DNA of 13,968 nucleotides from Bacteroidota bacterium (GTDB lineage Bacteria; Bacteroidota; Bacteroidia; Bacteroidales; Prolixibacteraceae): positions 1-13,968 of the forward strand of contig JAUYEQ010000416.1 in the NCBI GenBank assembly GCA_030691295.1, written 5' to 3'. Positions 713 to 12,677 of the stretch are shown here, piece after piece. Every line of letters begins with the position of its first letter. Within the stretch, counting starts at the first letter, position 1. A model generated the notes under the pieces. That model saw nothing but the letters and a program-made list of their open reading frames with translations, was not told the origin of the DNA and made no database searches. A program made the translations under genes and the position numbers.

Positions 713-1267
713 ATGAAGGTTGAAGACAAGATATTGGTGGGCGAAATCAGAAACCGGAACCGAAAGGTTTTTGAAGTGCTGTTCTATGAGTATTACCCGC
801 ACCTGACACGTTATGCCGAAGGTTTCCTCTTCGACAAACATGCCTGCGAAGACATTGTACAAAACCTTTTTATTCACTTTTGGGAAAAAACGAATCAAAT
901 AGACATTCAGCTTTCGCTTAAATCGTATTTCTATCAATCGGTAAAAAACCGCTGCCTCAACCACCTTCGCGATATCAATGTTCAGGACAAGCATAAAATT
1001 CTTTACCTGGAAGCCTTGTTAAACGAGGACGATTCATCTGGCTGGGTCGATCTGGAAATTATAAAAAAAGTGCAGGATGCCATTGCCCAGCTTCCTCCGC
1101 AAATGGGCGAGTTGTTCAAACAGAAATACATGTTCGGAAGAAAGATACATGATATTGCCGAGATCAACCAGATTTCGGAAAATACCGTAAAAACACAACT
1201 TCGACGGGCAAAGGAAAAAATGCGCAAAATATTGCTGGATAGCAGCTCCTTGCGGTTCTTCTTTTAA
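713..1267 (+). CDS. ECF-family RNA polymerase sigma factor of a PUL
   Basis: This 184-residue protein has the size and layout of Bacteroidota ECF (sigma-70 family) factors that sit beside fecR and susC. Region 2 spans roughly residues 15-85: the FEVLFYEYYPHLTRYAEGF segment, then CEDIVQNLFIHFWE, which matches the conserved 'A-E-D-I-V-Q-x-x-F-x-x-x-W' core-binding motif. Next comes the YFYQSVKNRCLNHLRD stretch that typically contacts the -10 element. Region 4 spans roughly residues 115-170: AIAQLPPQMGELF, then a helix-turn-helix (IAEINQISENTVKTQLRRAKEKMRK) for -35 recognition. The protein should be held inactive by the FecR protein encoded next and released when the STN-containing SusC senses ligand. 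ATG 713 is a good start because it precedes region 2 by the usual short leader. The C-terminal SSSLRFFF tail is hydrophobic but short. Confidence 0.93.
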   Translation: MKVEDKILVGEIRNRNRKVFEVLFYEYYPHLTRYAEGFLFDKHACEDIVQNLFIHFWEKTNQIDIQLSLKSYFYQSVKNRCLNHLRDINVQDKHKILYLEALLNEDDSSGWVDLEIIKKVQDAIAQLPPQMGELFKQKYMFGRKIHDIAEINQISENTVKTQLRRAKEKMRKILLDSSSLRFFF

Positions 1268-1330: not shown

Positions 1331-1346
1331 CTTGACTAAAACTAAC

Positions 1347-2516
1347 ATGACGGAACTGAATCAAAACATCGATTTTGAGATCATCTGGAAAAAAATCCAC
1401 AATCAGACCTCTGAGGAAGAAGAAACTCTTTTGAAACAATGGTTGTCTGAAAACACCGCTCATCGTAAATACTTCGATAGCGCCCTTAATTATTACACCA
1501 ATGGCTCTCAATTTGCCAATTCACCTGCCGAATTAAAAAAAGCGCTCCGTAACATTCATCGTAAAGCCGGCATTTTTTCTCCTGCCCGGAATACCCGAAT
1601 AATTGCAATCACCAGTATCGCAGCCAGCATTCTGTTCCTTATTTATTTTCAGTTTTTAAAACTTGAAATTAATCCCGAAATCATTGGAGTTGAGCAACAG
1701 GTGCAATCGATTGTGCCAGGCAGTAACAAGGCTGTGCTGATTCTTGCTGACGGAACTGAACATGATCTAACTTCAGATGAAAATACTTTTACTGATGCCG
1801 ATGGAACGGAGATTAAAAATACCGGCAACTCGCTGGAATACTCAAGCAAAAACGCACTTTCAACAGAAATAAAATACAATACCCTGAAAATTCCGCGTGG
1901 CGGCGAATATTTCCTTATTTTATCAGACAGCACAAAAGTGTGGCTGAATTCAGAAACCACCCTTCGCTTTCCGGTTCAGTTTGCAGCCGATGTTCGCAGC
2001 GTTGAACTCACAGGGGAGGCTTATTTTGAGGTAACGAAAAACATAAAAATCCCGTTTATTGTAAACTCCGGAAATCAGAGTATCAAAGTACTTGGCACAC
2101 AATTCAACGTTTCATCTTATCCTGAAAATCAAAACATATATACAACTCTTGTAGAGGGTAATGTAGAAGTTTCGATGAGTAATAACCCGCAAATAAAACT
2201 GACACTGAAACCAAATGAGCAGAGCATCTTAAATTCCGACAACAATCAGATTCAAAAAAGGACTGTAGATATCAATCAGTATGTTGCGTGGAAAGATGGA
2301 CGTTTTGTTTTTAGGGAGCAGCCTCTGGAAGAAATAATGGGTACACTTTCCAAATGGTACGATGTGCAAGTCGTTTTCTCAAATGAAAGAGACAAGAAAT
2401 TAATGTTTACCGGAAATCTGGAGCGTTATGCCGATTTTGGTGATATACTGGCAAAAATTGAAAAGACCAATGAAGTGAGTTTTAATATTGAAAACAATAC
2501 GATAACCATCCAATAG
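1347..2516 (+). CDS. FecR-family anti-sigma factor (inner-membrane sigma regulator)
   Basis: This 389-residue protein should bind and restrain the adjacent ECF sigma factor in the cytoplasm and receive the signal from the SusC STN domain in the periplasm. Residues 1-80 form the cytoplasmic sigma-binding part (FEIIWKKIHNQTSEEEETLL, then a 'W-L-S-E-N-x-x-H-R-K-Y-F' motif typical of the family). One transmembrane helix spans about residues 82-103 (IIAITSIAASILFLIYFQFL). The FecR domain follows at about 175-285, with IPRGGEYFLILSDSTKVWLN, LTGEAYFEV and IKVLGTQFNV as signature segments. A C-terminal DUF4974-type module covers about 310-389 (FREQPLEEIMGTLSKWYDVQV). An in-frame TTG lies at 1332, but ATG 1347 gives the usual N-terminus and is preferred. 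The gene is 79 bases downstream of the sigma gene and 86 bases upstream of the preferred susC start. Confidence 0.93.
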   Translation: MTELNQNIDFEIIWKKIHNQTSEEEETLLKQWLSENTAHRKYFDSALNYYTNGSQFANSPAELKKALRNIHRKAGIFSPARNTRIIAITSIAASILFLIYFQFLKLEINPEIIGVEQQVQSIVPGSNKAVLILADGTEHDLTSDENTFTDADGTEIKNTGNSLEYSSKNALSTEIKYNTLKIPRGGEYFLILSDSTKVWLNSETTLRFPVQFAADVRSVELTGEAYFEVTKNIKIPFIVNSGNQSIKVLGTQFNVSSYPENQNIYTTLVEGNVEVSMSNNPQIKLTLKPNEQSILNSDNNQIQKRTVDINQYVAWKDGRFVFREQPLEEIMGTLSKWYDVQVVFSNERDKKLMFTGNLERYADFGDILAKIEKTNEVSFNIENNTITIQ

Positions 2517-2555
2517 AAAAGAAAAAGGCGGGAAATGTTCGCACCATTCCCCACC
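2517..2555 (-). terminator. Intrinsic terminator on the minus strand, between fecR and susC
   Basis: Read on the minus strand, GGTGGGGAATG (2555-2545) pairs with CATTTCCCGCC (2537-2527) across a 7-base loop. This gives an 11-bp stem with no mismatches when G-U pairs are allowed. It is followed at once by TTTTTCTTTT (2526-2517). On the plus strand the two wobble positions become C-A mismatches and no T-run follows. The structure therefore fits termination of leftward transcription, although no minus-strand protein gene lies nearby. It is the 3' end of the candidate antisense RNA described separately. Confidence 0.7.
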
Positions 2556-2591
2556 CTGATTGTAGTAAAATAATAATGTGTATTAACTTAC
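2517..2591 (-). ncRNA. Candidate DonS-like cis-antisense small RNA opposite the susC leader
   Basis: Seen: on the minus strand TAGATTTG (2603-2596) matches the Bacteroidota -7 consensus TAnnTTTG exactly, and a strong intrinsic terminator ends at about 2517. A start a few bases after the -7 element, near 2591-2589, gives an RNA of about 70-75 nt. Known: Bacteroides PULs with ECF/FecR/SusC regulation have been reported to encode short cis-antisense RNAs, DonS being the named example, opposite the susC leader and repressing the locus. Inferred: this RNA would pair with the susC mRNA leader just ahead of its AUG and reduce its expression. Weak point: no clear -33 TTG is present at the expected distance, and a lone -7 match occurs by chance several times in a window this size. 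The case rests on the promoter and terminator occurring together at the right spacing and place. Confidence 0.5.
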
Positions 2592-2595
2592 AGTA

Positions 2596-2603
2596 CAAAT
2601 CTA
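2596..2603 (-). promoter_or_regulatory. Candidate minus-strand -7 promoter element (TAGATTTG)
   Basis: TAGATTTG on the minus strand fits TAnnTTTG, the primary-sigma -7 box of Bacteroidota. It overlaps the A of the preferred susC ATG at 2603. A -33 TTG is not obvious; the nearest candidate on the minus strand is GAGTTAC, upstream of a T-run, at a somewhat short spacing. It would drive the candidate antisense RNA ending at the terminator near 2517. Confidence 0.4.
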
Positions 2604-5600
2604 TGAAAAAAAAGCGATGTAACTCTATCCGTTGGCACGGGTGGAAAAAACTATTCCTTATGATGAGGATAACTGTATTCTTTTTGTTGCTGAGCCTGTT
2701 GCAGGTATCGGCAAGTGTTTACTCTCAACAGACCAATCTGGTATTAAGGCTTGAAAACAGCAGTATCGAACAGGTTCTGAAGAAAATTGAAGAACAGAGT
2801 AAGTTCTACTTCCTTTACAGGTCTGACCTTCTCAAGGACGTACCTTCGGTGTCCATTCAGGTGAAAGATGCCAAACTGGAAGATATTCTGAACAAAATTC
2901 TGATTCCAAACGGCTTTTCGTATGAAATTGATGACCGGGTGGTAGTAATTAAAAAATCAACGGTCGCACCGATTCCTGTTGAACAGCAAAAAGGCGTTTC
3001 GGGAACCGTTAAGGATAAAAACGGCAGTTCCATTCCCGGAACTTCGGTTGTGGTGAAAGGAACCACCACCGGAACTATTACCGACAACGATGGTAATTTC
3101 CGGTTGAGTGTTCCTGAAAATGCACAAACTCTGGTCTTTTCCTTCGTTGGGATGCTCTCACAGGAAGTGGCAATTTCAGGAAAAACAACGTTCGAAATTG
3201 TGCTTCAGGATGAAACTGTGGGCGTTGACGAAGTGGTTGTGATTGGTTACGGTACCCAGAAAAAAGTAAATCTGACCGGTGCTGTTTCTGCAGTTAAAAT
3301 CGACGAAAAAATCACCAGCCGTACGCTGAGCAATGTTTCATCGGGTTTGAACGGATTGATTCCAGGTTTGGCAGTAAACCAGAACTCGGGCATGGCCGGA
3401 AAAAACGATGTTTCGCTGCTTATCCGCGGTTTGGGAACTGTTAACAATGCCAATCCTTTGGTGGTAGTTGACGGGATGCCTGATGTTGACATCAACCGGC
3501 TGAACATGAACGACATCGAAAGTATCTCGGTTTTGAAGGATGCGACTTCATCGGCTGTTTACGGTTCACGTGCTGCCAACGGTGTTATTCTGATAACAAC
3601 CAAATCAGGAAAAGGAATGGATAAAACAAGGATCAACTATTCAAGCACCTTTGCGCTGGAACATCCGACCAAAGCTTATGAGTTTATGGCCGATTATCCC
3701 CGCGCACTGACCATTCACCAGAGACAGGCAGCAACAAATACACTACGCTCAAATTATGTATTTAAAGATGGTACCATCGACCAGTGGATGGCTCTCGGAA
3801 TGATTGACCCTTTGCGTTACCCAAACACCGATTGGTGGGATGTGCTGATGCGCGATGGTCAGGTTCAGAACCACAATCTTTCGGCTTCAGGAGGAAATGA
3901 AAAATCGAACTTCTTTATTTCCGTTGGGATGATGGACGAAAAAGGCCTTCAGATAAACAACGATTATTCACGCTACAATGCACGTTTTAATTACGATTAC
4001 AAAGTACGCGACAACATGAATGTTGGCGCCAAATTCGCCGGCGACTGGTCGAAATATACTTACGCTCTTGCTGATGGATTTACGGATGATGATGCAACCA
4101 ATACTGCAGGATTCGACCTTCAGTATGCCATTTCAGGAATGACACCTTACGATCCGGTATCAGGAAATTACGGTGGTGTAATGGCATACAACGAAGACCC
4201 TCAGGCTTACAATCCTTACACAGTTTATGTAAATAACCTGAACTACCAGAATCGTCAGGAAGCCAATACCAGCATGTATTGGGACTGGACGCCGATTAAA
4301 GGATTAACAGCACGGATTGATTATGCGTTGAATTATTACAACCAGTTCCGTTATACAGCAGCTATTCCAAACCGTTCGTTCAACTTCCAAACCAATACAT
4401 TTGGCTCACGTGTTTATGTTGGAACGAATGCCGGAGTTGCCAATTATACCAATACCGGTTACAAAACACAATTAAACGGGAGGTTAAACTACCAAACAAC
4501 CATTGCCGGAAACCATGATATCGGTGCATTGTTTGTTTATGGCGAAGAATACTGGTATGGCAGGTCTCAAACAAGTTCACGTACCGACCGTTTGCATCCT
4601 TCCCTTCATGAAATTGATGCAGCCCTTTCAGGAACGACACAGGGAGCTGGCGGTAATTCAAGTACCGAAGGACTTCAGTCCTACATTGGTCGTTTGAATT
4701 ATGCGGCATTCGACAAATACCTGCTAGAAGTGAATTTCCGTTACGACGGATCATCCAAATTCCTCCCCGGAAGACAGTTTGGTTTCTTCCCGTCAGCAGC
4801 AGTAGGCTGGCGTTTTACTGAAGAAAATTTTCTACGCTCATCTCTGGAAGGATGGCTTTCGAGCGGAAAACTTCGTGCTTCATACGGAGGACTGGGTAAC
4901 AACAGCGGTGTTGGACGTTACGAACAACAGGAAACACTTGCTGCCAACCACTACATGATTGGCGGAAATATTGCTTTAGGACTGGTAAACCAAAAAATGG
5001 TAAACCCTGAACTTTCATGGGAAACAACCAGTGTATTAAATATTGGTTTGGATCTTGGATTCATGAAAAACCGGTTGACTGCTGAAATAGACTATTACGA
5101 CCGCTTAACGTCCGGGATGAACCGTCCATCGGAAATGTCAATTCTTTTAACCGGAGCATACACAGCACCGCGTAAAAATATCGGAGATATGCGTAACCGT
5201 GGTATTGAAGGAAATTTCACATGGAAAGACAAAATCCGCGATTTTAATTACAGTTTTAACCTGAATGGTTCATACAACACAACAGTACTCGAAGAATGGA
5301 ATGAATTTCTTGGAAGAGGCTGGGTATTCCTGAATATGCCTTACCATTTTCTTTACACCTACGAAGATATGGGCATTGCACAAACATGGGCAGATGTTTA
5401 CAATGCAACCCCTCAGGGAGCTTCACCGGGAGACATCCTGCGCAAAGACCTTAATGGTGACGGACGTATTGACGGTAATGACAGAAAAGCATATCCGCAT
5501 GTTCAACGTGACCGGCCAACCACCAACTTTGCATTCAACACCAGTGTTGCATGGAAAGGATTTGACATGAATGTACTTCTTCAGGGAGCTGCCGGGCGTA

Positions 5601-5986
5601 AAGACTACTGGCTCAACATTTTCAACAACGTGAACTTCAGTGCACAGCGTTACGCTTCAACATGGAGCCATTGGGAACAACCATGGAGTGTTGAAAACCG
5701 TCAGGGCGAGTGGCCTCGTTTGGGTGGAAACGCCAATCGTGAAGAAACCACTTTCTGGCTTGATGACCTGAGTTACCTGCGTTTAAAGAACGTTCAAATG
5801 GGATACACTCTTCCAAAGAATCTGCTGATCAGAATTGGTATCGAAACTGTTCGTATCTACGGATCGGCTGAGAACCTGACCACATTTACCAAATACCGCG
5901 GCTTAGATCCTGAAAAGAGAGCACATGCCAGTGATGCATATCCGCTGAATAAATCGTTCTCACTTGGTATTAACATTGGAATCTAA
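2603..5986 (+). CDS. SusC-like TonB-dependent outer-membrane transporter with N-terminal STN signalling domain
   Basis: This 1127-residue protein is the outer-membrane channel that imports oligosaccharides together with SusD. After the signal peptide (core about residues 20-41, ending SASVYS), an STN domain covers about 45-116 (LENSSIEQVLKKIEEQSKFYFLY), which in transducing transporters contacts the FecR protein. A carboxypeptidase-regulatory-like domain follows (about 131-202; GTVKDKNGSSIPGTSVVVKG). Then comes the DEVVVIGYGTQKK segment (about 210-221), the plug (LLIRGLGTVNNANPLVVVDGMP, ISVLKDATSSAVYGSRAANGVILITTKSG) and the 22-strand barrel to the C-terminus (SFSLGINIGI). DLNGDGRIDGND (949-960) fits an EF-hand-like Ca-binding loop, as often seen in SusC proteins. 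ATG 2603 is preferred: it gives MKKKRC followed by a basic stretch, typical of PUL SusC leaders. An in-frame ATG at 2576 would add nine residues. SusD begins 11 bases after the stop. Confidence 0.96.
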   Translation: MKKKRCNSIRWHGWKKLFLMMRITVFFLLLSLLQVSASVYSQQTNLVLRLENSSIEQVLKKIEEQSKFYFLYRSDLLKDVPSVSIQVKDAKLEDILNKILIPNGFSYEIDDRVVVIKKSTVAPIPVEQQKGVSGTVKDKNGSSIPGTSVVVKGTTTGTITDNDGNFRLSVPENAQTLVFSFVGMLSQEVAISGKTTFEIVLQDETVGVDEVVVIGYGTQKKVNLTGAVSAVKIDEKITSRTLSNVSSGLNGLIPGLAVNQNSGMAGKNDVSLLIRGLGTVNNANPLVVVDGMPDVDINRLNMNDIESISVLKDATSSAVYGSRAANGVILITTKSGKGMDKTRINYSSTFALEHPTKAYEFMADYPRALTIHQRQAATNTLRSNYVFKDGTIDQWMALGMIDPLRYPNTDWWDVLMRDGQVQNHNLSASGGNEKSNFFISVGMMDEKGLQINNDYSRYNARFNYDYKVRDNMNVGAKFAGDWSKYTYALADGFTDDDATNTAGFDLQYAISGMTPYDPVSGNYGGVMAYNEDPQAYNPYTVYVNNLNYQNRQEANTSMYWDWTPIKGLTARIDYALNYYNQFRYTAAIPNRSFNFQTNTFGSRVYVGTNAGVANYTNTGYKTQLNGRLNYQTTIAGNHDIGALFVYGEEYWYGRSQTSSRTDRLHPSLHEIDAALSGTTQGAGGNSSTEGLQSYIGRLNYAAFDKYLLEVNFRYDGSSKFLPGRQFGFFPSAAVGWRFTEENFLRSSLEGWLSSGKLRASYGGLGNNSGVGRYEQQETLAANHYMIGGNIALGLVNQKMVNPELSWETTSVLNIGLDLGFMKNRLTAEIDYYDRLTSGMNRPSEMSILLTGAYTAPRKNIGDMRNRGIEGNFTWKDKIRDFNYSFNLNGSYNTTVLEEWNEFLGRGWVFLNMPYHFLYTYEDMGIAQTWADVYNATPQGASPGDILRKDLNGDGRIDGNDRKAYPHVQRDRPTTNFAFNTSVAWKGFDMNVLLQGAAGRKDYWLNIFNNVNFSAQRYASTWSHWEQPWSVENRQGEWPRLGGNANREETTFWLDDLSYLRLKNVQMGYTLPKNLLIRIGIETVRIYGSAENLTTFTKYRGLDPEKRAHASDAYPLNKSFSLGINIGI

Positions 5987-5997
5987 AATAGAATGAC

Positions 5998-7839
5998 ATG
6001 GAAAAAATAACTTCAAAAATACTGGTCTTCTCGTTCATTATCGGGCTGACCCTTTTTAACAGCTCGTGTACCAAAGATTTGCTCGATCAGGTACCTACCA
6101 CTGATCTGGGTGCAGCTCAATTCTGGCAAACCGAAGCAGACGCGACCATAGCCCTGATGGGTGCCTATGCAGCCGTAAGACCGCTTTTCGACCGTGATTA
6201 TTACTTCGACGGACATGGTGATTATACCCGGGTACGTGGAATAAGCTCTACCAATGAAAACCTTCGGCTGGGCGATGCCTACCACGGTGGCAACTATAAT
6301 CCAACCGGTTATGGCGGAAGCTTTGATAAATATTACCGCTATTTATATGGTGGTGTTAACCGCACCAATTATGTGATCGAAAACGTCAGAAAAATGCTCC
6401 CAACTGCAAGTGCAGCTTCAAAACCCAGCCTCGAAGCAGTAATCGGTGAAGCACGTTTGCTCCGCGGCATGGTTTATTTTCGTTTGATCTCTATGTGGGG
6501 AGATGTTCCGTACATTGGCAATATTATCTATTCAAATACTGAAGTTGAAAATCTGACGCGTACACCAATTGCCCAGGTTAAAGACTCTATTATGGCAGAC
6601 TTTACTTATGCATTCGAAAAATTACCAACAAAAGGAGCAGCTTTGGGACGTGCAGGCAAACCTGCCGCATTGGCTTTCCGTGGTAAAATGCATCTGTATT
6701 GGGCATCATGGAACAAATTCGGATGGCCTGAACTTGAAACTTTTACTCCCAACACTGCTGATGCAACAGCATCCTATACTGCTGCAGCTGCTGATTTTAA
6801 ATCAGTCATTCAGGATTTCGGCTTAACACTGTTCCGTAACGGCGAACCTGGCGACTGGGGAACCATGGGCAATGCCGATGTGCTTCCGAATTATTTCTAC
6901 CTGTTCTTACCAATTGCCAACGGCGATCCTGAAATGATCATGTCCTTCACCCATGGTGGAACAGGAACTGGTCAGGGAGAAGAGTTGATGCGCGATGTGG
7001 CAGGTCGTACCCATGAAGGTTCACAATGCTGGGTATTCCCTTACTATGAAATTGCTGACCGTTATCAATTGACAACAACAGGAGATTTTGCCCCAAAATT
7101 GGTTCCGATGAATCCTACAACGGCTGGTGCAAGAACAGCGCTTAATTCGGCTGTTAATCCTGCAAGTTATGCTGGTCGCGATTATCGTATGAAATCGTCC
7201 ATCATGTGGGATTATGAAATGAGTATTGGATTGACTTCTCTGAAATCGACCGGTTATACTCCGTTTATTTATAAAACATGGAATGCAGCGGTTACCATTG
7301 GTGGAGTGAAATATACTTCCTACAATACTGATGCAGCAGTTTACGGGTACGTATTCCGCAAATTTCTGCGCAACTATGGTGGCTTAGGCCGCAGCGAAGG
7401 TGATTATGCTTATCCTGTAATGCGTTTGGCCGATGTTTTCCTAATGTATGCTGAAGCAACCAACGAAGTGAACGGACCTCAGGCAGATGCGATTGATCTG
7501 GTAAATAAAATTCGTCGCAGAGGTAATCTTCCTGCATTGGCACCTGCAAAAACAGCCTCGAAGGAAGCCTTTTTCTCAGCCATTGAGCAGGAACGAATTA
7601 TTGAACTATTGGGTGAAGGACAGCGTGGTTTCGACTTACGCAGATGGAGAGCCATCGAACGTGTTTGGAATCCACCTTATGGTTTGGGCGTTTGGAGAAT
7701 TGACACACACGGTGCAAACCGCGACCGTTATTACCAGAATCTGTCGGAGCTTAATTATCAGCAAAATTATATTTTCCGAATTCCTCCAGGCGAACGTGAC
7801 CGTAATCCAAACTTAACCCAGAACAAACCCTGGTTATAA
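5998..7839 (+). CDS. SusD/RagB-family glycan-binding outer-membrane lipoprotein
   Basis: This 613-residue partner of the SusC protein forms the lid that captures glycan at the cell surface and passes it into the channel. The signal peptide ends in a lipobox with lipidated cysteine C24 (FNSSC, then TKD). The N-terminal SusD domain begins DLLDQVPTTDL...FWQTEADATIALMGAYAAV. The conserved helical motif EARLLRGMVYFRLISMWGDVPY (residues 151-172) is the classic 'E-A-R-x-x-R-x-x-x-Y-F' signature. The C-terminal part carries ERIIELLGEGQRGFDLRRW (532-550) and the terminal IPPGERDRNPNLTQN motif, both diagnostic. The length is a little above the family average of about 500-600. It starts 11 bases after susC and is clearly co-transcribed. 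Glycan specificity cannot be read from the sequence. Confidence 0.96.
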   Translation: MEKITSKILVFSFIIGLTLFNSSCTKDLLDQVPTTDLGAAQFWQTEADATIALMGAYAAVRPLFDRDYYFDGHGDYTRVRGISSTNENLRLGDAYHGGNYNPTGYGGSFDKYYRYLYGGVNRTNYVIENVRKMLPTASAASKPSLEAVIGEARLLRGMVYFRLISMWGDVPYIGNIIYSNTEVENLTRTPIAQVKDSIMADFTYAFEKLPTKGAALGRAGKPAALAFRGKMHLYWASWNKFGWPELETFTPNTADATASYTAAAADFKSVIQDFGLTLFRNGEPGDWGTMGNADVLPNYFYLFLPIANGDPEMIMSFTHGGTGTGQGEELMRDVAGRTHEGSQCWVFPYYEIADRYQLTTTGDFAPKLVPMNPTTAGARTALNSAVNPASYAGRDYRMKSSIMWDYEMSIGLTSLKSTGYTPFIYKTWNAAVTIGGVKYTSYNTDAAVYGYVFRKFLRNYGGLGRSEGDYAYPVMRLADVFLMYAEATNEVNGPQADAIDLVNKIRRRGNLPALAPAKTASKEAFFSAIEQERIIELLGEGQRGFDLRRWRAIERVWNPPYGLGVWRIDTHGANRDRYYQNLSELNYQQNYIFRIPPGERDRNPNLTQNKPWL

Positions 7840-7878: not shown

Positions 7879-8286
7879 ATGAAAAAATATTTTTTAACAT
7901 TCATAGCTATCACTTTAGCAACCTTTGCCTGGGTTAGCTGTACCGATTTTCCTGTTGACGAAGATGGGTTGCTGATTACTACCAGGGGCCAATGCTATGT
8001 CGGCAACTTTGAGTTGCTTGGCGTTGATTTTCAAACCGTAAGAACAAAAGCTGCGGTTATTGATACAACTGCTCAAACCATTAACGTAGAGGTATTTTTT
8101 GGTACCGATCTCAAGAACGTCTATCCTCAGTTTAGTCTGGTAACCGATGCCAAACTTGATCCGAAGATTGTTGGGAAAGTTGATTTCTCTGACCTTGCCA
8201 ATCCTAAAGTTTTCACGGTCATCTCGGGCAACCGGCTGGTTAAAAAACCATATACCGTTTACGTAACAGTACAAGCCAAACCTTAA
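7879..8286 (+). CDS. Small surface lipoprotein with a single DUF5018-like beta domain
   Basis: This 135-residue protein has a lipoprotein signal peptide with lipidated C21 (AWVSC, then TDFPVDEDG). The mature part of about 115 residues is one beta-rich domain: LLGVDFQTVRTKAAVIDTTAQTINVEVFFGTDLKNVYPQFSLV, a middle segment, and the closing KVFTVISGNRLVKKPYTVYVTV. This pattern ('...VYPxFxLxxxAK...F.VxSxNxxxKxYTVxV') resembles DUF5018-type modules that occur singly or in tandem in PUL lipoproteins. The family name is given from memory. It lies 39 bases after susD and 11 bases before the next lipoprotein, in the position of SusE/SusF. It probably sits on the cell surface and helps bind the glycan or assemble the SusCD complex, but no binding residues can be pointed to. 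Confidence 0.8.
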   Translation: MKKYFLTFIAITLATFAWVSCTDFPVDEDGLLITTRGQCYVGNFELLGVDFQTVRTKAAVIDTTAQTINVEVFFGTDLKNVYPQFSLVTDAKLDPKIVGKVDFSDLANPKVFTVISGNRLVKKPYTVYVTVQAKP

Positions 8287-9451: not shown

Positions 9452-9496
9452 AGCTTTCCAAAGTTTTTTCAAGTTTATATAAACTTTGGGAAAGCT
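9452..9496. repeat. Long imperfect inverted repeat with nested palindrome upstream of the lyase operon
   Basis: AGCTTTCCAAAGTTT (9452-9466) is mirrored by AAACTTTGGGAAAGCT (9481-9496), perfect apart from one extra G, with a 14-base centre. Nested inside, AAGTTTATATAAACTT (9471-9486) is a perfect 16-bp palindrome that shares the right arm. AAGTTT at 9461, AAGTTT at 9471 and the inverted AAACTT at 9481 are spaced exactly 10 bases apart, about one helical turn. Neither strand has a T-run after the hairpin, so it is not a terminator. It ends 31 bases before ATG 9528, a position suited to an operator or a leader RNA structure. Confidence 0.6.
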
Positions 9497-9527
9497 TTAC
9501 AAAACTGGATTTCTTAATCTTATATCT

Positions 9528-10499
9528 ATGAAAACCTTGTACCTTACAATCGTATTTCAGATGTTACTTTTCACCGCTTGCGCACAGGAGAAAACATCGG
9601 AATCAAACTCCGGCACCCTGATTTTCCAATCGGGTTTTGAGCCCGGTTCGAAAGTCATTGCCAAAGGTTCAGATTCCGACATTATCGGGATTGACCGTTC
9701 ATTTTCAGGAAATAACGATTGGGAGGCCCACCTCGACAACCACCCCGAAATCGGAAATTTCAACCTGCAATACCAGGGCGGCGACTCGACCTTGCGCTTT
9801 GCTAAAATTATTCCTGAACCCGGTAATCCGTCCAATCATCTGCTTCATTTCTGGCTCGACAAACCCAATGTGGAAGGTTCAAAAGGCCGTATTCAGGCCA
9901 ATCTTTACGGTAACAAAGGGATGAAGGAGTTTTACCAGTCGGTGCGCATTTTTCTGCCCGCCGATTTTAACACAGTCCGCACCTTTCCCGACAAAATAAG
10001 CTGGCTCACCATTGCCGAATTCTGGAACAACATTACCTGGAGCCAAACGGAGCCGCACGGATTTCGAATCACGCTCGGAATCGGGAAGCCGGTTGCAGAA
10101 GAAAGCGACCTGTATTTCATTCTCGACGGGCAGGATTGCGAGTTGTTCGCCGACGGCAGCCAAAAATACACCACGCTTTGGAAGGAAACCAATCAGAAAA
10201 TAAAAGTACCGATCGGACAATGGTTTACGCTGGAGTATTACTACAAGGAAGGCGATGCCAACAACGGAAAATTCTACATGACCATTCAGCCTGATGGCGA
10301 AAAAAAGGAAATTATTTACGACCTGACCAGAATTACCCATAACACAAAAGACCCTAACCCCGATGGAGTGACCGATTTCAACCCCATTAAACTCTACACT
10401 TCCAAGAAGTTAATCGACTTTATGGGCAGTCAAAACAAAACCCTGCAAATTTACTGGGACGATTTTAAACTTTGGAAGGACAAACAGCCAAAACCTTAA
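9528..10499 (+). CDS. Lipoprotein with concanavalin-A-like jelly-roll features; candidate polysaccharide lyase
   Basis: This 323-residue protein begins at ATG 9528, not the upstream in-frame ATG 9486, because 9528 gives a proper signal peptide with lipobox FTAC and lipidated C18. The upstream start would lie inside the inverted repeat. The mature protein looks all-beta. It opens with LIFQSGFEPGS (31-41), continues with SKGRIQANLYGNKGMKEFYQ (118-137), PIGQWFTLEYYYKEGDANNG (228-247) and ends with LQIYWDDFKLW (306-316). This combination of a '.F.SGFE' entry strand, 'G.W..LEYYYKEG' and a closing 'DDFKLW' strand is typical of jelly-roll lyases and lectins (PL20/PF14099-like proteins by general resemblance). 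No family assignment is certain and catalytic residues cannot be named. It heads the lyase operon, 27 bases before the PL8-like gene, so a surface-bound endo-lyase or glycan-binding role is likely. Confidence 0.75.
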   Translation: MKTLYLTIVFQMLLFTACAQEKTSESNSGTLIFQSGFEPGSKVIAKGSDSDIIGIDRSFSGNNDWEAHLDNHPEIGNFNLQYQGGDSTLRFAKIIPEPGNPSNHLLHFWLDKPNVEGSKGRIQANLYGNKGMKEFYQSVRIFLPADFNTVRTFPDKISWLTIAEFWNNITWSQTEPHGFRITLGIGKPVAEESDLYFILDGQDCELFADGSQKYTTLWKETNQKIKVPIGQWFTLEYYYKEGDANNGKFYMTIQPDGEKKEIIYDLTRITHNTKDPNPDGVTDFNPIKLYTSKKLIDFMGSQNKTLQIYWDDFKLWKDKQPKP

Positions 10500-10526: not shown

Positions 10527-12677
10527 ATGAACAACAAAATTAAAGCGATACTGATTGCACTCATTTTGTTCTTTACCTTTTTGAAGGTAGATGCAGCAAC
10601 GTCAGAAATTGAACTTCTCAGGCAAAAAGTGATTGCTGAATTAATGGCTCCACCCGTAAACGAAGCAAATATCCGGGAATTGATGGCAACGCTAAAACCC
10701 GATGGAACCTGGCCGGGTATCGATTACGTGGATGTGTCGAACACCGGTTTTCAACATGCCAATCACCTGAGTAACATGGTGGAGTTGAGTCGGGCTTTTA
10801 AGAAGAAAGGAACCAAACTGAAAGGCGACAAAAAGCTTAAACTGGCCATTTATTCGGCGCTCGATTATTGGCTGGCGAACGATTTTATCTGCGAAAACTG
10901 GTGGCACAACCAAATTGGAACACCCATCGCACTGAATTCGGTTTTGCTCATCATGGATACCGACCTGACCAAAGACCGCGTTGAAAAAGCACAGCCCATG
11001 ATTGGCCGCGCGCACTTAACTGCCAGCGGCGCACGTCCGAGTGGCGACCGCATAAAAATTGCGGGCATTTTGGCCAAAAGCCTGCTTTACAGGCGCGACG
11101 AAGTTCAGTTTGCCGAAGTAATCAAAGTAATTGAAGGAGAAATCAAATTCAACACCGGACAGCGCGGTATGCAGCACGACTACAGCTTTCATCACCGCGA
11201 AGACCGCGTGAACAACACACTTTCTTATGGTACAGGCTATGCCGATGCTTTTGCCGAATGGGCTGCGTTTGTGTCGGGAACCAAATACCAGTTCTCCGAG
11301 AAACCGCTTCAGCACCTGATCGATTATTACCTCGACGGAATTTGCAAACAAATGGTTTACGGAAAGTACAACGACCCCGGTACCAAAAACCGCGACATAA
11401 CCCGCGCTGAAAGGCATCGTGCGATGGGAACCACCACTCCTGAACGTTTACTAAAAACCACCAGCTACCGAAAAAGCGAACTGGAAGAACTCATCAAAAT
11501 CCGCAAAGGCGAAGCCACTCCTACCCTGTCGTTCGCGAAATTTTTCTGGCAAACCGAGCATTTCGCCTTTCAGCGCCCCACGTTTTATACTTCCGTCAGA
11601 ATGCACTCCACGCGCAACGACAACATGGAAGTTCCATACAACGGCGAAGGTTTGATGAACCACCACCGCGGCGATGGCACCAACTACATTTCTGTAACAG
11701 GCGACGAATACACCAATATTGCCCCCGTTTACGACTGGCAGAAAATACCGGGAACAACGGTGCTTCAAAAGCCTGAAATCCCTTCTGAAAAAGAAATTCA
11801 AAAAATCGGGCTGACCGACTTTGTTGGCGCGGTTACCGATGGAAAATACGGAGCTGTTGCCTACGATTTCAAAAGCGCGCACGATCCACTTGCCGCGAAA
11901 AAAGCATGGTTCTTTTTCGACGATGAATATGTTTGCCTCGGAACAGGCATAAATTCAAGGGCAAAACTTCCGGCAGTAACTACGCTGAACCAATGTTTGC
12001 TGCGTGGCGATGTGATGTTGATGAACGGTAACCAAAAGTCAATGGTTGCAAAAGGCGAACACCAGCTTGATAAGGTGAAATGGATTTTACACGATGGCAT
12101 TGGGTATGTTTTTCCTGAAGCGCAAAACGTATTTTTATCGAACCAGGTGCAAACCGGAAGCTGGTTCAAAATTAACCGACAGTCTGATTCTCCAAAAGAT
12201 GAAGTTAGTAAAGACGTGTTCAAACTTTGGCTCGATCATGGCCCGCAACCACGAAACGCCAGCTACCAGTACATCGTTGTCCCGGCAATCACCGAACAGG
12301 AAATGGACAAAGCCGGCCAGCAAGTTAAAATCCTTTCGAATACCAGGGAAGTTCAGGCAGTCAGTCATTCAGGACTAAACATTTGCCAGATTGTATTCTA
12401 TACTTCAGGCGAATTAAAGGTTTCGGAAAATCTGACGATCGGAATGGACAGTCCGGGAACAGTAATGGTGAAAACTGATGGTGCTGCGGTAAAACAAATT
12501 TCGGTGGCCGATCCATCGCGTAAACTGGGTAAAATCCATATCACTGTTAGCCAAAAAATGGAGAAAAGCGGTGATAATTTCCGCTCATTCTGGAACGAGA
12601 AGAAAAGAGTTTCAGAAATATCGATTGATTTGCCACAAACCGTTTATGCCGGGAAAAGCGTAACAATTGAATTATAA
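10527..12677 (+). CDS. PL8-family polysaccharide lyase (chondroitin AC/hyaluronate lyase-like)
   Basis: This 716-residue secreted enzyme should cut uronic-acid-containing chains by beta-elimination. The signal peptide (about 1-23, cleavage after VDA) has no lipobox, so the protein is periplasmic or secreted. The N-terminal alpha/alpha toroid carries ENWWHNQIGTP (123-133), the family's aromatic patch and catalytic Asn (N124). DYSFHH (218-223) and LSYG (232-235) hold the candidate catalytic His (H222 or H223) and Tyr (Y234). NRDITR (288-293) holds the arginine pair and YNGEGLMN (371-378) the conserved Glu (E374). The central and C-terminal beta domains match chondroitin AC lyase of Pedobacter heparinus closely in several blocks recalled from memory (VYDWQKIPGTT; KKAWFFFDDEYVCLG; DVFKLWLDHG). 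Relative to that enzyme the His-Tyr spacing appears one residue longer. PL8 also includes xanthan lyases, so the substrate is not fixed. The next gene follows after 19 bases. Confidence 0.92.
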   Translation: MNNKIKAILIALILFFTFLKVDAATSEIELLRQKVIAELMAPPVNEANIRELMATLKPDGTWPGIDYVDVSNTGFQHANHLSNMVELSRAFKKKGTKLKGDKKLKLAIYSALDYWLANDFICENWWHNQIGTPIALNSVLLIMDTDLTKDRVEKAQPMIGRAHLTASGARPSGDRIKIAGILAKSLLYRRDEVQFAEVIKVIEGEIKFNTGQRGMQHDYSFHHREDRVNNTLSYGTGYADAFAEWAAFVSGTKYQFSEKPLQHLIDYYLDGICKQMVYGKYNDPGTKNRDITRAERHRAMGTTTPERLLKTTSYRKSELEELIKIRKGEATPTLSFAKFFWQTEHFAFQRPTFYTSVRMHSTRNDNMEVPYNGEGLMNHHRGDGTNYISVTGDEYTNIAPVYDWQKIPGTTVLQKPEIPSEKEIQKIGLTDFVGAVTDGKYGAVAYDFKSAHDPLAAKKAWFFFDDEYVCLGTGINSRAKLPAVTTLNQCLLRGDVMLMNGNQKSMVAKGEHQLDKVKWILHDGIGYVFPEAQNVFLSNQVQTGSWFKINRQSDSPKDEVSKDVFKLWLDHGPQPRNASYQYIVVPAITEQEMDKAGQQVKILSNTREVQAVSHSGLNICQIVFYTSGELKVSENLTIGMDSPGTVMVKTDGAAVKQISVADPSRKLGKIHITVSQKMEKSGDNFRSFWNEKKRVSEISIDLPQTVYAGKSVTIEL

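Follow-up and report, generated by a model that had tools for sequence, protein, structure and literature searches.

The spacer between fecR and susC in the window, the whole stretch of 13,968 nucleotides that was analysed, probably encodes on its minus strand a DonS-type cis-antisense RNA of ~70-75 nt that would damp leaky expression of susC. We observed the sequence, structure, conservation, strand polarity and position of this element, and judged by its conservation it is a real genetic element. The initial annotation had proposed such an RNA from the letters of the window, and the reading gains support from the recurrence of the same anatomy in orthologues and in most of the FecR-SusC loci examined. 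It most likely represents a DonS-type RNA in a lineage for which our searches of open-licence papers listed no examples. The features of the region are as follows.

713..1267, plus strand: ECF sigma factor gene (TIGR02985)
1332..2516, plus strand: gene for a FecR-type anti-sigma factor (PF16344, PF04773)
2517..2526, minus strand: U-rich tract TTTTTCTTTT following the hairpin (from the sequence; present in orthologues)
2517..2591, minus strand: predicted cis-antisense RNA of ~75 nt (about 70-75), starting at G 2591 and ending near 2517-2520
2525..2557, minus strand: terminator hairpin of 13 bp with a 7-nt loop (from the fold and from covariation in 13 related loci)
2596..2603, minus strand: -7 promoter box TAGATTTG (TAnnTTTG, exact), overlapping the A of the susC ATG
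2603..5986, plus strand: susC homologue (TIGR04056), preferred start ATG 2603
2624..2645, plus strand: newly noticed hairpin of the sense strand within codons 8-15 of susC (9 bp, UGGC loop)
5998..7839, plus strand: susD homologue (PF07980)
10527..12677, plus strand: family 8 polysaccharide lyase, encoded in the same cluster

The protein family matches agree with the ECF sigma, FecR and SusC context given by the initial annotation. ECF sigma and anti-sigma factors encoded together are what we take to be a feature of DonS-type clusters, and the window has both. The fecR stop codon occupies 2514-2516; the hairpin follows directly, with the terminator end adjoining it. The preferred susC start, ATG 2603-2605, is the one that matches relatives; an alternative in-frame ATG at 2576, upstream, is without the conserved start context. 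All reading frames with a family match lie on the plus strand, in tests that covered plus-strand frames only. The top NCBIfam model for the lyase at 10527..12677 is chondroitinase-AC, with a score under the model cut-off. The proteins encoded at 9486-10496, adjoining the lyase gene, and at 7879-8283 matched no Pfam or NCBIfam family at E 0.001. Rfam release 15 gave nothing above gathering score in the window, and a plasmid search for near matches found none.

The plus strand at 2596-2603 reads CAAATCTA, so the minus strand carries TAGATTTG, which is exactly the TAnnTTTG box originally described. This box (2603-2596) is separated by 38 nt from the minus-strand hairpin. The hairpin had been annotated as an 11-bp, G-U-tolerant stem at 2555-2527; its location and G-U tolerance are right, and the stem is two pairs longer, 13 bp at 2557-2525. 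It contains three G-U pairs, two of them within the 11-bp core, and is followed at 2526-2517 by the T-rich tract as described. A minus-strand G-U pair reads A-C on the plus strand and interrupts the stem there, so the hairpin is continuous only in minus-strand RNA, as had been claimed. Folding of minus strand 2610-2510 gave -27.3 kcal/mol (z -5.05), a stability reached by 0/200 shuffles, and the predicted 75-nt RNA gave a z of -4.88. A single terminator-like site was found in 2200-3000, where a simple scan would give 0.6 by chance; taken alone, this site proves little.

Hairpin and box are kept in all eight same-genus orthologous loci that reach into susC; a ninth, L029, was left out as its sequence stops inside the spacer. 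The initial annotation had named, as the case against its reading, homologous loci in which neither stem nor box is kept; the usable orthologues include none. Seven of the eight also passed our terminator scan; in the exception, L066 (= L033), a few bases lie between hairpin and U-tract. The alignment of spacers and check for covariation suggested by the annotation were carried out on 13 sequences (alignment A1: the window, the eight orthologues and four more distant loci). In the 11-bp stem core 143/143 cells were paired; 4 of the 11 pairs had changed on both sides and 2 on one side, and 5 were invariant. The pairing or covariation score of A1 was matched by 0/500 shuffles and the number of doubly changed pairs by 4/500; further pair types were at chance level (56/500). 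Slid versions of the stem were 53-62% paired. Conservation was higher in the spacer than in fecR in 6/8 orthologues (0.88-1.00 versus 0.73-0.93) and near equal in one (0.74 versus 0.73); the remaining one gave 0.79, with 10 gap positions, in the spacer versus 0.70 in fecR.

The survey of FecR-SusC spacers was made on the best-scoring loci among the matches listed rather than on every FecR gene. The FecR end was placed in 230 loci, and a SusC frame lay downstream in 223; the seven dropped were L017, L029, L076, L161, L178, L196 and L217, of which L017 and L029 stop inside the spacer. There were 204 distinct loci, and removal of three without a usable ATG left 201 spacers. These were searched with our own scan for a hairpin of -9 kcal/mol or lower followed by a T-tract. 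Terminators were found on the minus strand in 127 spacers, on the plus strand in 20 and on both strands in 17. Dinucleotide shuffles contained them in 68/804 (minus) and 11/804 (plus), and susC coding controls, 199 of full length, in 22/201 (minus) and 15/201 (plus). Minus-strand terminators were present in 15/17 loci of the window's own genome, 57/68 of its relatives, 8/15 named loci and 47/101 loci of the phylum sample, in which they were frequent in families f26 (16/20) and f29 (15/22) and rare in f46 (2/23). The 74/201 spacers in which none was scored include cases missed by the scan, such as Bacteroides congonensis L126, in which the hairpin stands apart from the T-tract. The loop motif YUNR, on the sRNA or the mRNA side, occurred in 59 of 99 non-redundant loops drawn from the 127 hairpins, versus 35.6 in shuffles, an enrichment that is no more than suggestive, because paralogues share descent. 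In a ranking of all heptamers we also noted GCCTATG on the plus strand, between 60 nt before the fecR stop and the hairpin, in 20/127 terminator loci (for example L020, L129 and L214), with 0.15 expected from shuffles; it might mark a sense promoter or mRNA start.

For the promoter, we looked for CAAAnnTATG, the complement of TAnnTTTG, at in-frame ATGs within the first 60 codons. The exact box was present at the susC ATG in 85/127 loci with a terminator versus 4/74 without (Fisher p 2.6e-19, relatedness not corrected), and at ATGs further on in the same loci in 7/6,539. The link held in the phylum sample alone (20/47 with a terminator versus 1/54 without, p 4.1e-7) and in relatives (p 4e-5); the own genome showed it weakly (p 0.044), and the 15 named loci alone gave no significant link (p 0.28). 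In 42/127 loci a terminator was present and the exact box absent. In the 85 loci with both, the distance from box to hairpin end was 67-119 nt, with a median of 81.

As judged by its -7 box, the putative promoter is of the sigma-ABfr type of Bacteroidota (TTTG / TAnnTTTG; PMC6847099). The start was placed at 2591, 4 nt past the box, by the spacing that the available part of PMC6847099 reports for Flavobacterium promoters, and the window fits it with a G at 2591, plus-strand position -12 relative to the susC ATG. It differs from these promoters in that the box overlaps a start codon on the opposite strand and has a G in nn. The G is found in 17% of 114 box-aligned loci; in the Flavobacterium promoters TAHHTTTG, according to the same part of PMC6847099, G is virtually absent at that position. 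No -33 element was found in the window, as the initial annotation had conceded as its main doubt. A TTTG at a gap of 19-21 was present in only 4/114 box-aligned loci, and neither TTTG nor TTG was enriched at the -33 distance. By these sequence counts the missing -33 element is a trait of the whole family and not of the window alone, which weakens the objection; in Flavobacterium, too, the -33 motif is described as much less evident than the -7 (PMC6847099, in part).

From these features we infer transcription, pairing, repression and switching of the predicted RNA. Polymerase with sigma-ABfr would start at 2591, ~12 nt upstream of the susC AUG, and the RNA would end at the intrinsic terminator adjoining the fecR stop codon. 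Being fully complementary, it would base-pair with the susC leader as far as about -12, blocking access of the 30S subunit and damping leaky susC while the ECF sigma factor is off. This step is modelled on FopS-10, which is reported to block initiation at another susC start (PMC11697453), and on repression by DonS (PMC7366714, PMC11697453), all taken from the available parts of these papers. Because the -7 box sits on the start codon, interference between sense and antisense would be expected: with the sigma factor active, sense transcription over the start codon would disturb the antisense promoter, and mutual interference would make the pair switch-like. If the sense start lies downstream of the hairpin, the overlap with the antisense RNA would be shorter.

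Since the box shares the start codon, its conservation could partly serve translation. In the extreme case there would be no dedicated antisense promoter: the box would serve only translation initiation at susC, and the hairpin would be a relic or would end stray antisense transcripts. The shared ATG and the lack of a -33 element are in line with this, and the available part of PMC6847099 gives -3, -6, -12 and -13 as translation determinants in Flavobacterium, adenine being favourable, with A-3 named in its abstract. In positional counts with the ATG picked blind to the box, A was found at -6 in 81% of the 127 terminator loci versus 41% of the 74 without, and at -13 in 65% versus 47%, which would fit the reported motif. 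A-3 hardly does (38% versus 27%), and position -12, a G on the minus strand, is C in 53% of terminator loci (22% without). Against this reading stand C at -7 in 72% versus 22% and T at -1 in 88% versus 50%, with A at -6 to -4 in 81-92% of terminator loci and -3 and -2 variable. Furthermore, among SusC genes without FecR (55 examinable of 56 named loci) the box occurred in just 3, a minus-strand terminator in 3 and both in none. We regard a role in translation only as improbable. Still less credence can be given to the inverted repeat as a sense element of the susC leader, whether fecR terminator, attenuator or stabiliser. The repeat does lie directly past the fecR stop, a possible place for a 3' terminator, and 17 of the 127 spacers with a minus-strand terminator have a plus-strand one too. 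However, plus-strand terminators are outnumbered by 20 to 127, and a strand-blind search yielded 150 stems of which 104 had a T-tract on the minus side only and none on the plus side only (neither side, 40; both, 6). In those 104 stems G-U pairs numbered 121 on the minus strand versus 20 on the plus, compared with 59 versus 29 in the 40 stems without a T-tract, and in the window itself the plus-strand stem is broken.

A minus-strand RNA might also be made and exert its effect chiefly through transcription interference where promoter and start codon overlap, rather than through base pairing. With the -7 box over the start codon, polymerases would collide if both promoters were active; against this, a terminator kept by covariation yields a short RNA that interference alone would not need. 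We consider this unlikely, if less so than the two preceding explanations, and favour a short antisense RNA that pairs with the susC leader.

DonS of B. fragilis and the PUL-associated antisense RNAs of Bacteroides (PMC7366714, PMC10994844, PMC11697453, each available in part) are, like the RNA predicted here, short RNAs that run divergently from a susC homologue and antisense to it. The likeness is one of position and anatomy; the anatomy of the window, including FecR, recurs in B. congonensis and B. salyersiae. At 70-75 nt the predicted RNA is slightly shorter than the 78-128 nt given for DonS-type RNAs (PMC7366714). The window also differs in its host, whose genus has Prolixibacteraceae MAG members (L060, L062, L066), and in a cluster that encodes a family 8 lyase. 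An intrinsic 3' terminator, present in the window, is a criterion for the class that we set ourselves and that is not stated in the cited work. In the parts available, DonS is described as a repressor (PMC7366714, PMC11697453) whose mechanism is called unknown (PMC11697453), and B. thetaiotaomicron is said to have 32 annotated PUL-associated antisense RNAs, with positive correlation in some antisense-PUL pairs (PMC10994844). FopS and GibS of B. thetaiotaomicron (PMC11697453, in part) are likewise small RNAs, and the FopS RNAs, which combine a single-stranded 5' part with a terminator hairpin, act where translation of susC begins. FopS, however, comprises 14 paralogues with a common seed that act on several PULs, whereas RNAs of the window type have their own sequence at each locus and would act in cis. 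Our search of open-licence papers found no susC antisense RNA outside Bacteroides, and none on the coding hairpin described below. The accessible text of PMC9723704 treats general antisense transcripts of Flavobacterium psychrophilum and cites those of B. fragilis; that of PMC12632263 contains no mention of DonS, antisense or sRNA.

Thirty loci (alignment A2) were used to build a covariance model, R1; none of them is from a named Bacteroides and two (L191, L236) are from phylum-sample genomes. The genome search scored 150 first-look candidates per genome and can miss cases. At E up to 1 the own genome gave at least 17 matches, 14 in FecR loci, of which 9 were training loci, and 3 elsewhere (E 0.018, 0.73 and 0.98), one of which is opposite a SusC frame that has no FecR. 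Matches at E up to 0.01 were found in 11 of 12 other genomes of the genus; the remaining one, G006, had a single match to the FecR protein. Of at least 124 matches in the 12 genomes, 27 were listed as new loci, and 26 of these had FecR and SusC on the opposite strand. Two of the 27, L306 and L310, duplicate training loci with a different id, and some others are close kin of training loci. Among the seven genomes behind the named loci, three had matches at E up to 0.2, at least nine in total (Bacteroides congonensis 3, B. salyersiae 2, a Tannerellaceae MAG 4; E 2.1e-4 to 0.19), and four, including two Phocaeicola MAGs, had none. A SusC frame lay on the opposite strand in all nine. The five Bacteroides matches (E 0.004-0.10) were antisense to a FecR-linked susC, and for the four of the Tannerellaceae MAG no FecR was found in the fetched flank. 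Two matches stood apart. L327:1501-1593 (G018, contig 39; E 1.1e-5) is an orphan antisense-RNA region in which nothing but the first codons of a susC-like start remains; neither a FecR nor a SusC frame was found, and the frames on the two sides are aldehyde dehydrogenase-like and amidohydrolase-like (named by eye). It may be a remnant, or a derivative that acts in trans. At L296:1501-1595 (own genome, contig 484; E 0.018) an intergenic -7 box precedes a terminator hairpin, and the fetched flank showed neither a FecR nor a SusC frame; this may be a free-standing small RNA or a chance match.

These results would move PUL antisense RNAs from an observation in a few gut Bacteroides transcriptomes towards a feature that can be predicted from DNA. 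Box and terminator are readable in most sampled FecR-SusC loci of the lineage and in part of those across the phylum, and a predicted transcription start, a size and a model are now available. The recurrence suggests a widespread and little-studied brake on glycan uptake.

A second hairpin lies within the coding region of the same genes, at susC codons 8-15 in the window; it was examined by folding energies, shuffles, synonymous recoding and later-found loci. Over susC +12 to +57 the 85 loci with terminator and box had a mean of -9.7 kcal/mol (z -1.6), and the opposite strand -7.6 (z -1.1); the controls gave -6.2 in loci without a terminator (n=74) and -5.5 in deeper windows of the same genes (n=254). 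Relative to synonymous recodings the mean z was -1.38 in box loci, -0.36 without a terminator and -0.39 in deeper windows. The loop is centred near +32 (quartiles 30-35), and the hairpin overlaps the place expected for a -33 element. It was strong in the own genome (mean -11.1, n=13) and in relatives (-11.2, n=48; -5.0 in relatives without a terminator, n=11), and weaker in the 42 terminator loci without an exact box (-7.8). The phylum sample did not show the effect (-6.0, n=20, versus -6.4 without a terminator, n=54). The 28 loci detected later with R1 averaged -11.6 versus -5.6 deeper, and 25/28 were at -8 or below; these are mostly relatives of the discovery set and include the orphan L327, so they give replication, not independence. 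G-U pairs numbered 103 in the sense versus 37 in the antisense strand, and further in 70 versus 44, 56 versus 47 and 41 versus 45. This polarity is suggestive and not decisive, because loci without a terminator gave 62 versus 36 at the corresponding position. Residues 5-15 of the encoded protein vary strongly (3.5-3.9 bits). In orthologues, conservation of the first 20 codons extends to synonymous positions: the same codon was used at 0.86-1.00 (14-16 codons each) and at 0.41-0.89 beyond codon 130; third-codon identities past 300 nt were gap-shifted and were excluded.

It is possible, as a tentative proposal, that in this lineage and in some Bacteroides the susC genes linked to FecR have in common a two-strand RNA module that works as a regulatory pair. 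In such a module the start codon would double as the -7 box of the antisense RNA, and the hairpin of codons 8-15 would be kept by structure while protein and DNA sequence vary widely. The hairpin would be a dedicated element, for example one that retains the 30S subunit on a leader lacking a Shine-Dalgarno sequence, or alternatively might pause the sense polymerase over the antisense promoter. Each glycan locus would have its private copy of the pair.

Some approaches to the coding region were abandoned. A MAFFT alignment (A3) intended for pair counts mis-registered the stems. A count of hairpins with 6 bp or more lacked stringency, with 78/85 in box loci versus 47/85, 54/85 and 43/84 in controls, and 42/74 in loci without a terminator. 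An extra N-terminal leader in sRNA-bearing SusC was only partly borne out, the hydrophobic core lying at a median of residue 18 (n=79) versus 10 (n=65), with a wide spread.
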